From Flavobacteriales bacterium (GTDB taxonomy: Bacteria > Bacteroidota > Bacteroidia > Flavobacteriales_F > PHOS-HE28): DNA of 64,000 nt. Positions within the stretch are counted from its first letter, which is position 1. Each line of letters starts with the position of its first letter. A program made the translations under genes and the position numbers. Below the pieces are notes generated by a model that searched no databases, was not told the origin of the DNA, and was given only the letters and a program-made list of their open reading frames with translations. Location: assembly GCA_019912395.1 (NCBI GenBank), contig JAIOIH010000031.1, forward strand, positions 89,898 to 153,897. The letters are read 5' to 3'. Below, piece by piece: positions 53,551 through 59,832 of this stretch.

Positions 53551-53677
53551 CTCACCCTATCTTGTTGGTCAAACGAGCGACCATGCGCAAGCTCATGCTC
53601 TTATGCGGTGCTCTGATCTGCGGTTTGCTTTCCGCACAGAACTGGGCCTTGATCAACCCGGATTACAAGTACAACTA
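53551..53677 (+). repeat. Duplicated 5' segment, copy 1
   Basis: 127 bp starting CTCACCCTATCTTGTTGG and running through the start codon and signal peptide region to TACAAGTACAACTA. It matches 58298-58424 with only four differences by eye. The upstream 32 nt are conserved as well as the coding part, so a control element may be included. Confidence 0.85.
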
Positions 53678-55079
53678 TTCACTGGGCGGCACGGATACGA
53701 TCACGAACCAAGTGTTCGTAGCGGCGATCGATACGCTGGGACCGGATGACCGCCTGCTCACACTTAACCGGGTGCCGCTGGTCTGCGACACTTGTGGTGC
53801 GGATGTTTGGGAAGTAGCCGTGTGGCCGGACGCTCCGCAGTGGTTGGGCGGCACCGTGCGTGTGGTTGCGGATGAATGGCATTTCACGGGGAATGGTTCC
53901 CAGGTCATTCTACCTCTTGCTACGGACGGAAGCTTCTGGTTGTATGATACGCTGAACACCATCTGGGCGCAGATGGGGCCGGTGGTTGATATAACAACGT
54001 TCGGGCTTCCCGACCAGCACAGGGCGATCACGCTCGACAACGGCGAAGCGATCGTGATAAGCCGCGATCACGGTATCCTCTCATGGAGCAGTGGCCATAC
54101 ATTGATCGGCATCAACGGACCCCAAGTTGGCCGCACGATCCCTACGCTGCAGGAGTTCTTTCCGTATGAAGCAAACGATGTGTTGGAGTATGAGACCTGG
54201 TATGGCGGCTGTGATGGGATCGGTGGATGCGAGGGAAGGTCGAGGGAATTCAAATTCACGGTTGGCGAGAGCATCGAGACCGACAGCGCGATCCTCTTCT
54301 CCGGTTGGATGAGCGCCCATCACCTGTGGTATTTCCAATTGGGCGGGATCGGTTCACCTACTCAGTACGTCCACGATTACACGAACGCCGCAGGAGAATG
54401 GATAGCCGGGCCGCCGGAGTTGCCATGGTCAGAACTGCTGGCCTCCTACCCGGGGCAGCTTGTCCAGCGTTTGCATCAGATGGCTCCGAATGCCGGGCCG
54501 GACTTCTGTATCGCGGAACATGCACTGGATGCAAACGGACGCTATACCATCGGCTGCCGTGCATTCGAGCGGAATGAGGAGGTGGGGTATTTCTTCTTCT
54601 CCAACATGGAAGCCGGTCCTGCGGGCACGATCCTCTTGAATGGACCCGAGGACTGGTGCTATCCGGACGGGGGAGACGTATGCGGGGTGAGCTATGTGGA
54701 AGGTGTGGGCATGACCGGCTTCAACGGCAACTATTTCGAACGCGGTGAGCACTATCTACTACGTGGACTGATCCTGGGTGGAGACACGGTGTTGGGATCG
54801 ATCACGGATGACAGCATCCTGCTCAACGTTTCCGACCTTACAGCATCTTCAGGTTTCACCATCGCTCCGAACCCTGTGGTCGATCGGATCTCCGTCAATG
54901 GCCTTACAGCTGCGACCGAGGTCCTGCTCCTGCACGATGCCTCCGGCCGCCTTCTTCGGTCCTTACCTGTTTCCTCAACGTCATCCGAAGACCTCGATGT
55001 TCGAGACCTTGCTTCCGGCATCTATCTCCTAAGGACGATGCCCGGAAATGAAGCCAAGCGCTTCGTGGTAGCCCGTTGA
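53583..55079 (+). CDS. Secreted T9SS protein, paralogue A
   Basis: 498 aa from MRKLMLLCGALICGLLSAQN at 53583 (signal peptide). The mature N-terminus WALINPDYKYNYS is shared with the 58330 protein. The middle is a beta-rich region without recognised domain, with several Cys pairs (VCDTCGADVWEVA, GGCDGIGGCEGRSREF, WCYPDGGDVCGV). The C-terminus (FTIAPNPVVDRISVNGLTAA to NEAKRFVVAR) is a type A T9SS sorting domain. Its relation to paralogue B weakens after the first 35 residues but the overall layout (signal, Cys-paired middle, sorting domain) is the same. Confidence 0.83.
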   Translation: MRKLMLLCGALICGLLSAQNWALINPDYKYNYSLGGTDTITNQVFVAAIDTLGPDDRLLTLNRVPLVCDTCGADVWEVAVWPDAPQWLGGTVRVVADEWHFTGNGSQVILPLATDGSFWLYDTLNTIWAQMGPVVDITTFGLPDQHRAITLDNGEAIVISRDHGILSWSSGHTLIGINGPQVGRTIPTLQEFFPYEANDVLEYETWYGGCDGIGGCEGRSREFKFTVGESIETDSAILFSGWMSAHHLWYFQLGGIGSPTQYVHDYTNAAGEWIAGPPELPWSELLASYPGQLVQRLHQMAPNAGPDFCIAEHALDANGRYTIGCRAFERNEEVGYFFFSNMEAGPAGTILLNGPEDWCYPDGGDVCGVSYVEGVGMTGFNGNYFERGEHYLLRGLILGGDTVLGSITDDSILLNVSDLTASSGFTIAPNPVVDRISVNGLTAATEVLLLHDASGRLLRSLPVSSTSSEDLDVRDLASGIYLLRTMPGNEAKRFVVAR

Positions 55080-55241
55080 GCCCTTCCTCAGTAGATACAG
55101 TATTCGGTCAGCCGGAAAGGAGGTCTATCGCAGACTGTGCCAACAGCCGCATTTCCCCTGACCTTCCTCAGCTCAGTAGCCATCGCTTCGGGATATGTTT
55201 GCCCGCAACCAGCAACTGTTGCCATCCTACCCACCAACTGA

Positions 55242-56108
55242 ATGAAGCTCCTGACACGCTCCTTGCTTCTCCTGTTCGCCTTGGCCGCCTTCTCCTCTTG
55301 CAAGAAAGAGGAGGCCGAAGAACCCGCTCCGCCAGCACCTGCCGGCACCGATCTGCAACTGCTGCAGTCCGCTACGGACGGCTCCTATACGCTGGAGCTT
55401 TACAGCAAGACCGGCCAACTGCGTGTGGGCCACAATACGATCTTCGTCCGCCTGAAGCATGGCGGAAGCGCTGTGAGCAACGCCAGCTTGAGCTGGATGC
55501 CCATGATGACCATGACCATGGGCGGCAGCACGCACCAGCACAGCTGCCCCTACTCGGCGATCACATCCACGTCCAGCGACCCTTCACTCTTCCAAGGTGA
55601 TGTGGTCTTCAACATGGCCAGCGGTCCCATGGGCCAGTGGGAAATGACCGTGACCCATGACACCGGAAGCGGCCCCCACGAAGTGGTGATGTCCGTGAAC
55701 GTGCTGGCCTCGGACAGCGACTTCAAGAAGCGATACACCTCGTCCATCGGCACGGATGGCGTGACCTATCTGTTGGCCATGGTAGAGCCGAGCAACCCCG
55801 ACCAAGGAGCCAATGACATGATCGTTGGACTGTACAAAAGGGTGAACGACACGGAATTCCCGGTGGTTGATGGATACATCATCCGCGTGGACTCCCGCAT
55901 GCCGGGCATGGGCAACCATACCGCGCCGGGCAATGTGGACCTGACGCAAGGAGCCGATGGGTTCTATCACGGGCAGGTCGGCTTTTCCATGACCGGCTAT
56001 TGGAAGATCAACCTGATCGTGGAGGATGGCTCCGGTACCGCACTTTGCGGGGAAGCCATCACGGAGACCAACCTGGAAAGCAGCGTTCACTTCAAAGTGT
56101 CATTCTGA
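55242..56108 (+). CDS. Copper-type lipoprotein with two YtkA/FixH-like domains
   Basis: 288 aa. Lipoprotein signal with lipobox LAAFSSC (anchored at Cys about 20). Two tandem Ig-like domains of the YtkA type follow. The first (LRVGHNTIFVRLKHGGSAVS, then SWMPMMTMTMGGSTHQHSCP) carries a Met/His-rich loop well suited to bind copper. The second (RVDSRMPGMGNHTAPGNVDL, GQVGFSMTGYWKINLIVEDG) has MPGMGNH at the same place. The TonB receptor starts 55 nt downstream on the same strand; together they look like a copper capture and import pair. Confidence 0.82.
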   Translation: MKLLTRSLLLLFALAAFSSCKKEEAEEPAPPAPAGTDLQLLQSATDGSYTLELYSKTGQLRVGHNTIFVRLKHGGSAVSNASLSWMPMMTMTMGGSTHQHSCPYSAITSTSSDPSLFQGDVVFNMASGPMGQWEMTVTHDTGSGPHEVVMSVNVLASDSDFKKRYTSSIGTDGVTYLLAMVEPSNPDQGANDMIVGLYKRVNDTEFPVVDGYIIRVDSRMPGMGNHTAPGNVDLTQGADGFYHGQVGFSMTGYWKINLIVEDGSGTALCGEAITETNLESSVHFKVSF

Positions 56109-56163
56109 TCCGCTGCACGGCACTCATAGGCTTCAGGTCCAGAAGCACTGAAGGGCCATCGCA

Positions 56164-58197
56164 ATGATCGTGCGGCACTTGGTCCTCCTGTTCACCCTGT
56201 TGCACATGGGTACCGCGCTGTTTGGCCAGTCCCGCTTGGACAGTCTGGTGAAGGCTTCGCGGGATACGATGTCCTTTCTGGAGCTTGAGAACGTGGTGAT
56301 CCTGCCCACCGATCCAAGCTGCCACATGCATGGCGACAAGCCACTGGGCTCGTTGGAGAACTACTTGGCCGAGTCCAATTCCGTGAACATGATCCGGCGG
56401 GGATGCTACGCATGGGAACCCATGCTGAACGGCATGTCCACGGAGCGCAGCGTGATCACGGTGGATGGCATGCGCATTTACGGCGCCTGCACCGACAAGA
56501 TGGATCCGGTGACTTCCTACGTGGAAACCTCCAACCTGTCCCGTGCACGGATCAAGAGCGGCGTTTCCGGCGGCGAGCACGGCAGCACCATCGCGGGCTC
56601 CATCGACCTGGAGCGTCGGAGGTCCGGCTTCAAGGCGAAACGCAGCTTCGGCGGCTCCGCCTCTGCAGGGTTCGAGGCCAACAACAACCAGCGTATCCTG
56701 GGCGCCGCGCTGAACTACTCCAGCTCCTCCTTCTACACGGATCTGGACATTACCTCCCGCGATGCCTCCAACTACAAGGCCGGCCATCGCTCCGGCACTT
56801 CTTCCGAGGTGGAGCACTCGCAATTCACCAAGTACAACCTTTCCGCCATCGCCGGATACAAGCTGAGCGAAGGCAACGAGCTGGAGGCCTCGCTGATCTT
56901 CGACAAGGCCACCGACATGGGTTACCCCGGCCTGCCCATGGACGTATCGCTGGCGCAGGCACTCATCGGCTCGGTGCAGTACCGCCACCTGCCGCGCAAC
57001 GGCCCCATCAGCCTGTGGGAAACCAAGGTGTACTACAACACCATCACCCACGTGATGGACGACAGCCAGCGGTCGGTAGTGCCCATCCGCATGGACATGC
57101 CCGGCTGGAGTACCACGCAGGGCTTCTACACCAAGCTGTATGCATCGGCGGGCAAGCACCACATCAAGGCCACGTGGGCGGGCCATCGCAACAACTCCTT
57201 GGCGGAAATGACGATGCACCCGAACAACCCCGCCGAGCCCAGCATGTTCATGCTCACCTGGCCGGATGTCAACACCCTGTACAGCGGCTTGAACGTGGAG
57301 GACCGCATCCGCTTCAGCCCCAAACTGGATCTGACGCTGTATGGCGGGCTGGGCTTCCATGAGAACAGCATCGGCAGCGAATTCGGTCGCCGCTCCTTGG
57401 AGCTCTTTTATGTGGACGTGCCCGCATCCACGAGCCGCGTGCTGGTGAATGCCGGTGCCTCCTTGGCGCATCACCGCGGCCGCTTCACCAAGCGGGTGGG
57501 CCTCGGCTACAGCGAGCGCGCACCCTCCGTCTCCGAGGGCTACGGCTTCTACCTGTTGAACGCCAACGACAACTACGACTACATCGGCGACCCCGATATG
57601 CGCAACGAAGGCTCCGTTTCCGCAGAACTCTCCAGCACCTACAAGCACGGCAGGCTGATGCTGGAGTGGACCGCTTCGTACTTCCACATCATCGATTACA
57701 TCATCGGCAAGCCGCAGCCCGACCTGTTCCCCATGAACATCACCGCTTCCGGCGTGAAGGTCTACGAGCAATTGCCTTACGCCACACTGTTCAACACCGG
57801 TCTGGGCGCAGAGTACCGCTTCAACCAACCTTGGCTGTTCTTCGGCCGCGCCTCGTACAGATATGGGGAGGGCAGCGATGGCACGCGCCTGCCGCTCATC
57901 CAGCCGCTGCAAGGTCGCACCGGACTGCGGTACGGGAAGAAGAAGTATGTGGCCGAGGCCTCCGTGGAAGGCAGCACCCGCAACCGCAACAGCGCGGAAT
58001 TCGGCGAGACCAGCAAGCCGGGCTACGTGATCGGCAACTTGTCCGTCTCCCGTGAGTTTTCCTTGAAAAAGCACAGGCTCACCGTCAACCTCGGTGTGAA
58101 CAACATCACGGATCGGTACTACACCACGTTCTCCGATTGGTCCGGCATCCCCAGCATGGGCCGGAACATATACAGCCACGTGGTGTTCACGCTGTAG
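56164..58197 (+). CDS. TonB-dependent copper receptor (OprC/NosA-like)
   Basis: 677 aa outer-membrane receptor: signal peptide, plug domain (about 45-155), 22-strand barrel, and a final aromatic strand YSHVVFTL. The plug contains SVITVDGMRIYGACTDKMDP followed by VTSYVE, which closely matches the copper receptors OprC and NosA. The CxxxM (C109-M113) and a barrel HxM (H296-M298 in THVMDDSQ) correspond to the CxxxM...HxM copper site described for OprC. CHMH at 53-56 may be an extra ligand cluster. It probably imports copper with the Met-rich lipoprotein encoded just upstream. Confidence 0.9.
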   Translation: MIVRHLVLLFTLLHMGTALFGQSRLDSLVKASRDTMSFLELENVVILPTDPSCHMHGDKPLGSLENYLAESNSVNMIRRGCYAWEPMLNGMSTERSVITVDGMRIYGACTDKMDPVTSYVETSNLSRARIKSGVSGGEHGSTIAGSIDLERRRSGFKAKRSFGGSASAGFEANNNQRILGAALNYSSSSFYTDLDITSRDASNYKAGHRSGTSSEVEHSQFTKYNLSAIAGYKLSEGNELEASLIFDKATDMGYPGLPMDVSLAQALIGSVQYRHLPRNGPISLWETKVYYNTITHVMDDSQRSVVPIRMDMPGWSTTQGFYTKLYASAGKHHIKATWAGHRNNSLAEMTMHPNNPAEPSMFMLTWPDVNTLYSGLNVEDRIRFSPKLDLTLYGGLGFHENSIGSEFGRRSLELFYVDVPASTSRVLVNAGASLAHHRGRFTKRVGLGYSERAPSVSEGYGFYLLNANDNYDYIGDPDMRNEGSVSAELSSTYKHGRLMLEWTASYFHIIDYIIGKPQPDLFPMNITASGVKVYEQLPYATLFNTGLGAEYRFNQPWLFFGRASYRYGEGSDGTRLPLIQPLQGRTGLRYGKKKYVAEASVEGSTRNRNSAEFGETSKPGYVIGNLSVSREFSLKKHRLTVNLGVNNITDRYYTTFSDWSGIPSMGRNIYSHVVFTL

Positions 58198-58297: not shown

Positions 58298-58424
58298 CTC
58301 ACCCTATCTTGTTGATCAAACGAGCGACCATGCGCAAGCTCATGCTCATTTGCGGTGCTCTGATCTGCGGTTTGCTTTCCGCACAGAACTGGGCCTTGAT
58401 CAACCCGGACTACAAGTACAACTA
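58298..58424 (+). repeat. Duplicated 5' segment, copy 2
   Basis: Matches 53551-53677 with four differences; see copy 1. The similarity fades upstream of CTCACCC (GTTTAAGCCG versus GTTTTGCCTG) and downstream of the WALINPDYKYNY codons. Confidence 0.85.
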
Positions 58425-59832
58425 CAGCAACGACGGCACGGATACGATCAGCGACCAGATCTTCGTGACGCAAATTGATACGCTGGGCGTGGACAGCTTT
58501 CGGTATGAGTTGACTTCTGATGTAGCAGGGCATTGCCTCACATGCGACCCGATGCAGTACTCTGCGCCATGCTACGGGTTACAAGCCCCGATGATCAGGA
58601 CCGGAATTCCGCATGTATTTGGGAACAACGTAATCCTCCTCGGAACCGATCTCTGGATCATTGCTGGTGCTGGAAGCATGTTGATAAAGCCGCATCTCAG
58701 TGTAGGCTCTTCATGGATCTCTCCCCTGGGTGGGACGGCCTGGCTCTACGATGCGGACACCATGTCCCTGTTCGGTGGGGTGGATAGCGTAAAATCGATC
58801 GCGTTTAGCAACGGCGATACGTTGCTCATATCCAAGTCTTTCGGTCTGGTAGCGAGATGGAACGACGCGAACTTTGGTCAAATGTTGATCGGTCTGGACG
58901 GGACCTTGCAATTAGGAATGCATCTTCCGGATGTTGGCGACTATTTCGCGCATCAGGTCGGGGACGTGTTCGAGTTCGCCAAGGAAGGTCATTATGAGGA
59001 CGCGAGCTGTGTCCACTACACCTACGGGTGGATCAAGTACATATGCATGCAACGGGAAGACTTGCCGGACACCATAGCACTTACCTATCAGACCATTGAG
59101 CAAATGGACGAGTATGGGTTCACCATTCCTGGGCCACCGCACCCTTGCGGCGGCTGGCAGGGCGCCTGGGTCGACACGGTTACCGTACATATCGCTCGTG
59201 GATCGATGATGAGCACACACCACTTCAATCCAGACCTGCACATTGGCACATGGCCTGGAGCAGTTGGCTTGTCAGACTATCTCTATGCCACGGACAGTCT
59301 ATTCACATGGATGACCATCGGCCTTGATAGCACCGGACGCACAACGATGGGGTCTGCATTCGATGTGGCATCGAATACCAACTTGTTCTGCTCGAGCGAT
59401 CAGGATAGTTCGATCCTCATGCAGGCAAATACTAATTGGTGGTTGAGCTCCACGTTCGGCGAGGGGATCGGGCTTGTTGAAGAGATCAGGGATGGGATCA
59501 TCGCAGGATCCCGTCGACACCTCGTAGGCTATGTATTTGATGGGGACACCTCTGGCACAGTGCATTCCGACTCGTTCCTCCTGTCCGTTCAGGAGCATCC
59601 GGACGAGGCACCTGCCGTCACGCTTCACCCGAACCCTGCGGATGACCACCTCCTCCTTACATCCGTTGCTCCAGGCACAACCTTCTCCATCCTCAACTTG
59701 ACGGGTCATGTGCTTTTGACCCAGATGACCACATCAACACCGGAACATATCGTTGTCAGCGGTCTGGCTCCCGGTGTCTATCTGATGCGGATGGACGGAT
59801 ATGGACCCCAGCGCTTCGTGATCGCCCGGTAA
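58330..59832 (+). CDS. Secreted T9SS protein, paralogue B
   Basis: 500 aa from MRKLMLICGALICGLLSAQN at 58330. The N-terminus is nearly identical to paralogue A (53583-55079). The middle differs, again with paired cysteines (GHCLTCDPMQYSAPCYG, DASCVHYTYGWIKYICM). The C-terminus (VTLHPNPADDHLLLTSVAPG to GPQRFVIAR) is a type A T9SS sorting domain. The two paralogues flank the copper lipoprotein/receptor pair, so regional coregulation is possible but unproven. Confidence 0.83.
   Translation: MRKLMLICGALICGLLSAQNWALINPDYKYNYSNDGTDTISDQIFVTQIDTLGVDSFRYELTSDVAGHCLTCDPMQYSAPCYGLQAPMIRTGIPHVFGNNVILLGTDLWIIAGAGSMLIKPHLSVGSSWISPLGGTAWLYDADTMSLFGGVDSVKSIAFSNGDTLLISKSFGLVARWNDANFGQMLIGLDGTLQLGMHLPDVGDYFAHQVGDVFEFAKEGHYEDASCVHYTYGWIKYICMQREDLPDTIALTYQTIEQMDEYGFTIPGPPHPCGGWQGAWVDTVTVHIARGSMMSTHHFNPDLHIGTWPGAVGLSDYLYATDSLFTWMTIGLDSTGRTTMGSAFDVASNTNLFCSSDQDSSILMQANTNWWLSSTFGEGIGLVEEIRDGIIAGSRRHLVGYVFDGDTSGTVHSDSFLLSVQEHPDEAPAVTLHPNPADDHLLLTSVAPGTTFSILNLTGHVLLTQMTTSTPEHIVVSGLAPGVYLMRMDGYGPQRFVIAR

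Follow-up and report, generated by a model that had tools for sequence, protein, structure and literature searches.

Two adjacent genes of a Flavobacteriales bacterium, located in the 64,000-nucleotide stretch of DNA analysed as a whole (the window), encode a lipoprotein with two YtkA-like domains and a TonB-dependent receptor. Together they probably represent (rough probability 0.6) an outer-membrane copper-acquisition unit, in which a surface lipoprotein would feed copper to the OprC/NosA-type receptor, mainly for the needs of denitrification enzymes. Judged by its sequence, the receptor is a distant OprC/NosA relative, and the fixed YtkA lipoprotein partner appears to be the new part. A literature search, with most subscription papers outside its reach, returned no account of a YtkA lipoprotein paired with an OprC-type receptor in Bacteroidota; this fits the statement of the preliminary description that the arrangement is little described there. 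The features of the locus are collected in Table 1.

Table 1. Features of the gene pair and its upstream region, in window coordinates.
Feature	Position	Strand	Basis
Candidate promoter: CTGACCTTCCTCAG (55158-55171) and Bacteroidota-type box TATGTTTG (55194-55201)	55158..55201	+	Box conservation
Lipoprotein ORF, 288 aa; signal peptide, lipidated Cys20, two YtkA-like domains	55242..56108	+	ORF, PF13115, model
Mature start CKKEEA, fitting the surface lipoprotein export signal C-x-K-(D/E)2-x	55299..55316	+	Sequence, PMC5080379
Lipoprotein domain 1, putative copper site (M89, M91, H100, M125)	55506..55616	+	Invariant, 69 aligned sequences
Lipoprotein domain 2, putative copper site (M220, M223, H226, M250)	55899..55991	+	Invariant, 69 aligned sequences
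OprC/NosA-like TonB-dependent receptor, 677 aa	56164..58197	+	TIGR01778, OprC match, model
CHMH (C53-H56) of the receptor, a motif of the preliminary description	56320..56331	+	Alignment, model
CxxxM of the putative copper site (C109, M113), plug	56488..56502	+	OprC alignment; invariant
HxM of the putative copper site (H296, M298), barrel	57049..57057	+	OprC alignment; invariant

The receptor ORF starts 55 bases after the lipoprotein ORF, on the same strand. Its best profile is TIGR01778 (“TonB-copper”; E 5e-33), with a score of 114.7 bits lying far under the equivalog cut-off of 472.45; by that model, its sequence marks it as a relative of the family and not a member. The only solved structure in the PDB matched by the receptor sequence is OprC of Pseudomonas aeruginosa (E 7e-13; PDB 6FOK; PMC8610252), to which it is about 19% identical. 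The structural model (pLDDT 84.6) displays the plug and 22-strand barrel fold, with a TM score of about 0.8 to OprC, and the first 28 PDB matches in the fold search are all OprC, followed by the haem receptor PhuR and the zinc receptor ZnuD; weaker sequence matches to profile models of haem and siderophore receptors were also recorded. The four copper ligands of OprC are the residues of its CxxxM and HxM motifs (PMC8610252), and the CTDKM and HVM motifs pointed out earlier in the window's receptor align onto the same places. The corresponding C109, M113, H296 and M298 show no variation across the window and 12 relatives or across an alignment of 38 rows; since the 12 relatives were found independently of the motif, the four-residue site is not a matter of chance. 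Seven further methionines (M103, M259, M310, M312, M349, M351 and M361) are invariant in the same two sets and are candidates for a counterpart of the methionine track by which the copper site of OprC is reached. The reading of this protein as an OprC-type copper receptor is supported by sequence, site and predicted fold. One dissimilarity concerns the operon partner, which for OprC is the inner-membrane protein PA3789 and here is the YtkA lipoprotein.

The CHMH motif near the start of the plug, initially listed as an additional copper feature, is present but unconserved: it reads CHLH, CHTH or CHAH already in the nearest relatives and is lacking from the rest, and it sits in the low-confidence N-terminus of the receptor model. 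For these reasons it should be dropped as evidence, and it is probably not part of the mechanism. Two other receptors (L053 and L055) harbor, in place of CHMH, Cys-rich stretches before the plug (CACIGACSCG and CDCVGECSC).

As for the lipoprotein, the two YtkA-like domains proposed for it were recovered with the Pfam YtkA model (PF13115), which matches in two stretches with 51.2 bits against a gathering cut-off of 25.9. The predicted structure (pLDDT 92) is built of beta-strands arranged in two beta-sandwich domains; a fold search against the PDB returned generic tandem Ig folds only, nothing more specific, and a PDB sequence search gave a weak match to the copper resistance protein 9LL2 (E 0.2), which is a lead only. 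A Met-Met-His-Met pattern occurs twice, once per YtkA domain, and all eight residues are invariant in the 69-sequence alignment. The Met/His stretch SWMPMMTMTMGG, emphasized in the preliminary description, is indeed present, but the invariant residues within it are only M89 and M91.

The two genes were found to travel together. When 118 related genomes were searched with each protein separately and the neighbourhoods of the matches were then taken, the lipoprotein gene turned out to lie directly upstream of the receptor gene in each of the 13 relatives whose receptor match was good; in the genomes without the receptor (G086 aside), the lipoprotein search gave short, weak matches only. G086 was considered as a carrier of the pair and rejected: with a distant receptor match (27% identity) and a lipoprotein encoded on a different contig, it does not enter the pair counts. 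A scan of GTDB revealed at least 574 loci encoding relatives, and in the best 80 of these, retained for analysis, the receptor is immediately preceded by the lipoprotein without exception (80/80; two of the loci are contigs already among the 13 relatives). These 80 loci come from Flavobacterium, Chryseobacterium, Kaistella, Pedobacter, Olivibacter, Flavihumibacter and others; motif counts in this set are not independent, since the peptide patterns of the scan include CxxxM. No relatives of the pair were found in viral contigs. The lipoprotein is an obligate partner of the receptor, and the pair is a fixed unit in this branch. Its wide spread was absent from the preliminary description, as were the denitrification link and the leader ORF of the relatives considered below. 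One contig labelled Bifidobacterium breve (L136, CALPUN020000002.1) carries this Bacteroidota operon and is probably a misassigned metagenome contig. On either side of the pair, the window encodes a secreted protein (53580-55079 and 58330-59832); the two are paralogues that begin almost identically, MRKLML(L/I)CGALICGLLSAQNWALINPDYKYNYS, and carry T9SS sorting tails, which looks like an insertion of the pair between tandem copies.

The receptor co-occurs with the copper enzymes of denitrification. A 396-genome sample of the class comprised 40 receptor carriers, defined by a receptor match of at least 559 bits (the next group being below 292 bits), with the addition of a contig-end fragment in G028. 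With kinship ignored, nosZ was detected in 31 of the 40 carriers vs. 108 of the 356 non-carriers (p 9e-9), nirK in 15 vs. 21 (p 1e-7), and either of the two in 33 vs. 117. The enrichment persists without the window's genus (p 3e-7 for nosZ and 1e-4 for nirK, kinship likewise ignored). Within this genus, nosZ occurs in almost all genomes and the pair in only 7 of 45, and nirK is found in 6 of the 7 pair carriers vs. 2 of the 38 other genomes. The genome of the window harbors nirK and nosZ together with nosD and the genes of an ABC ATPase and a permease, the pair being located elsewhere and not adjoining them. The nirK–nosZ spacing in this genome is about 4 kb (L175, L176; C68:130990-136070), and the same is seen in G022 and G002. 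Closer linkage was recorded in two relatives: in one (L057), the pair resides inside the nos operon, after NosZ, NosD, an ABC ATPase and a permease, and in another (G096) nosZ is about 5 kb from the pair. Among the best 80 of the at least 574 GTDB loci, which are not independent since Flavobacterium dominates the set, nos genes are present within 9 kb in 34, nor genes in 26 and either in 41; a nos or nor gene, an Fnr-type regulator or a RIC protein is encoded nearby in 44 loci and none of them in 36.

A comparable case is NosA of Pseudomonas stutzeri, an OprC-type receptor tied to the copper supply of N2O reductase; the differences are that here nirK is linked as well, the link is a genome association only, a lipoprotein partner is present, and the hosts are Bacteroidota. 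Since 7 of the 40 carriers possess neither nosZ nor nirK, denitrification is not the sole use of the pair, which can be said to work like NosA, though not exclusively. The same seven carriers, together with the 36 of the best 80 loci lacking a nos, nor, RIC or Fnr-type gene nearby, argue for a broader reading, according to which the pair would be a general scavenger serving all copper enzymes, cytochrome oxidases included, and the denitrification link would stem from a low-oxygen lifestyle and gene clustering. This is a serious prospect, if one clearly below even odds: the strong enrichment of nosZ and nirK extends beyond the window's genus, one copy of the pair is embedded in a nos operon, and within the genus the pair tracks nirK. 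Another system in which TonB-dependent copper uptake is linked to respiration, that of the CrtA receptors, differs in the absence of conserved Cys or Met and in the import of chelated copper (PMC12914433).

The proposed handover requires the lipoprotein to be on the outer face of the cell. The pattern fitted by its mature start (Table 1) is the optimal surface-export signal of Capnocytophaga (PMC5080379), and the mature starts of the Flavobacterium homologues (CSSDDD, CSNDDE and similar) resemble SDDFE, a signal of F. johnsoniae. At least two acidic residues occupy positions +2 to +6 in 51 of 68 homologues, compared with 26 of 153 further lipoprotein-like ORFs encoded at the same loci. Exposure on the cell surface, as suggested at the outset, is likely in view of this signal and of the acidic starts in most homologues. 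Like SusCD of Bacteroidota, the pair would then combine a TonB receptor and a neighbouring lipoprotein that is probably exposed on the surface; unlike SusCD, it features a lipoprotein made of two Ig-like YtkA domains and encoded upstream of the receptor, and its putative substrate is a metal ion. A SusD fold was looked for in the lipoprotein, and two YtkA-family beta-sandwich domains were found instead. By analogy, the pair appears to work like SusCD without being a member of this class.

An opposite orientation has been considered as well, in which the receptor imports copper and the lipoprotein faces the periplasm, passing copper to cuproenzymes in the manner of CtaK or oxidase-assembly chaperones. 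In Bacillus subtilis, YtkA domains function in CuA assembly (PMC13344008), and CtaK/YtkA of this bacterium shares with our protein the presence of a YtkA domain in a copper-linked lipoprotein; here, however, there are two domains and the context is outer-membrane uptake rather than oxidase assembly. A receptor-less lipoprotein of the family in G086 (L194, C49, 4422-5297), situated near COX1- and Sco-like ORFs, also speaks for the periplasmic reading and may itself have a role in oxidase assembly. Still, the surface-export signal in the window, the acidic starts in most homologues and the strict pairing with an outer-membrane receptor render a periplasmic chaperone unlikely.

In most relatives, the operon begins with one more gene. 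Among the best 80 of the at least 574 GTDB loci, ORF calling revealed a short reading frame (about 120 aa) immediately before the lipoprotein gene in 68, and translation of the upstream DNA added 7, giving 75 of the 77 checkable loci (3 were cut by contig ends). In 28 aligned rows, C35, N37, C45, G47 and C49 (CxGxC) are invariant, as is a PP located 2–7 residues before the stop; the end is usually FHPP or FRPP, and the distance from CxGxC to PP is 64–70 residues. A Pfam search of the 28 members found no fitting family, DUF2946 included. The family occurs in 68 of the 118 relatives' genomes, in some through weak matches. Similar features are known from CruR, the copper-sensing leader of a Bordetella TonB-receptor operon possessing CXXC, RAPP and a fixed spacing (PMC9426467), whose arrest has been demonstrated in vitro (PMC12992588), and the CutF leader has a comparable anatomy (PMC9973294). 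Like these DUF2946 leaders, the ORF of the relatives is short and exported, combines a Cys motif with a near-terminal PP at a conserved distance, and precedes a copper operon; it differs from them in possessing CxGxC plus an upstream Cys, in ending mostly in [H/R/K]PP and not RAPP, in a spacing of 64–70 vs. about 45, in the lack of a DUF2946 match, and in a predicted stem reaching the lipoprotein start.

The sequence between the leader stop and the lipoprotein start folds better than its shuffles (mean z -3.0; 48 of 61 below -2), and a pairing is predicted between the leader stop region and the lipoprotein start, in one group through GTATTAA and TTAATAC just before the ATG and in a second through TTCTTAA and TTAAGAA just after it. 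RNAalifold returned no structure for the mixed intergenic alignment, in which the two stem registers are mixed; after splitting by group, the stem was found, with little covariation within groups. Halting of a ribosome at PP would mask the first stem arm, leaving the lipoprotein start free, and we infer by analogy with CruR that the leader is probably the copper-sensing switch of the operon in most relatives. Judging from the searches, this leader family, which lies outside the window, appears undescribed and is the most novel part of the system. Away from the pair, it often heads operons for MbnP and a di-haem peroxidase (CCP/MauG): at L177, L178, L181, L186, L188 and L189, a leader with CxGxC and, usually, a terminal PP heads MbnP operons, with the di-haem peroxidase in several. 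MbnP is known from methanobactin copper gene clusters (PMC3621798), and these operons are apparently a second copper-linked regulon of the same leader family.

The lineage of the window has lost the leader. The window's genome contains no member of the family reaching threshold; no leader was found at the pair locus of G017 or when the DNA upstream of the pair was translated in the window, G022, G028 and G002; and the two carriers that diverge most within the genus, G004 and G032, retain CHGEC without the terminal PP. The candidate promoter box stands 48 bases before the lipoprotein start in the window, and the TAnnTTTG box is kept in the near relatives G022, G028 and G002, at 45–51 bases before the start across the four, the chance expectation being about 0.02 per sequence. 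Scans for sigma-70 promoters and terminators yielded nothing beyond chance. A shared operator, CTGAYCTTNCTCAG, was tried and rejected: its only other exact match in the genome falls within a coding sequence, and we therefore claim no regulon.

That the substrate is instead haem, zinc or a chelated metal, the Met/His residues being incidental, is very improbable, as the weaker matches to haem and siderophore receptor models and the ranking of PhuR and ZnuD after OprC are opposed by the invariance of the full CxxxM-HxM site, the copper-type leader ORF and the copper-enzyme neighbours. Under the preferred copper-acquisition reading, the receptor would operate as a TonB-powered importer of the OprC/NosA type, with one copper ion bound by C109, M113, H296 and M298. 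The lipoprotein, flipped to the surface, would hold copper, probably Cu(I), at its two Met3His sites and hand it on to the receptor, a role comparable to that of SusD for SusC. The imported copper would mainly be used for loading NirK and NosZ, both encoded in the window's genome. In most relatives the operon would probably be switched by the copper-sensing leader peptide, and in the window's lineage, devoid of the leader, the pair would be expressed from its own promoter. A fuller picture, to which we give not far short of even odds, is that of a SusCD-like logic applied to copper in Bacteroidota: an OprC-type gate would be loaded by a surface lipoprotein bearing two Met3His copper sites and, in most species, hitherto unrecognised copper-sensing arrest leaders would control the system, such that at low copper a stalled ribosome opens the stem and the uptake genes are made, the leader having been lost stepwise in the window's genus, where some species keep the Cys motif but not the PP and others keep nothing.

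The completion of denitrification needs copper, and bacteria deprived of it release N2O, a greenhouse gas. Copper uptake by Bacteroidota, which are common N2O reducers, is little known; since the two-gene uptake unit occurs in cultured Flavobacterium species, the question is directly testable. A 2025 survey that documented RAPP/RGPP leaders in front of copper-related genes across many lineages found none in Bacteroidota (PMC12992588), perhaps because the leaders there end mostly in [H/R/K]PP. The leader family described here, if copper-sensing, would bring Bacteroidota into the realm of copper control by translation arrest.
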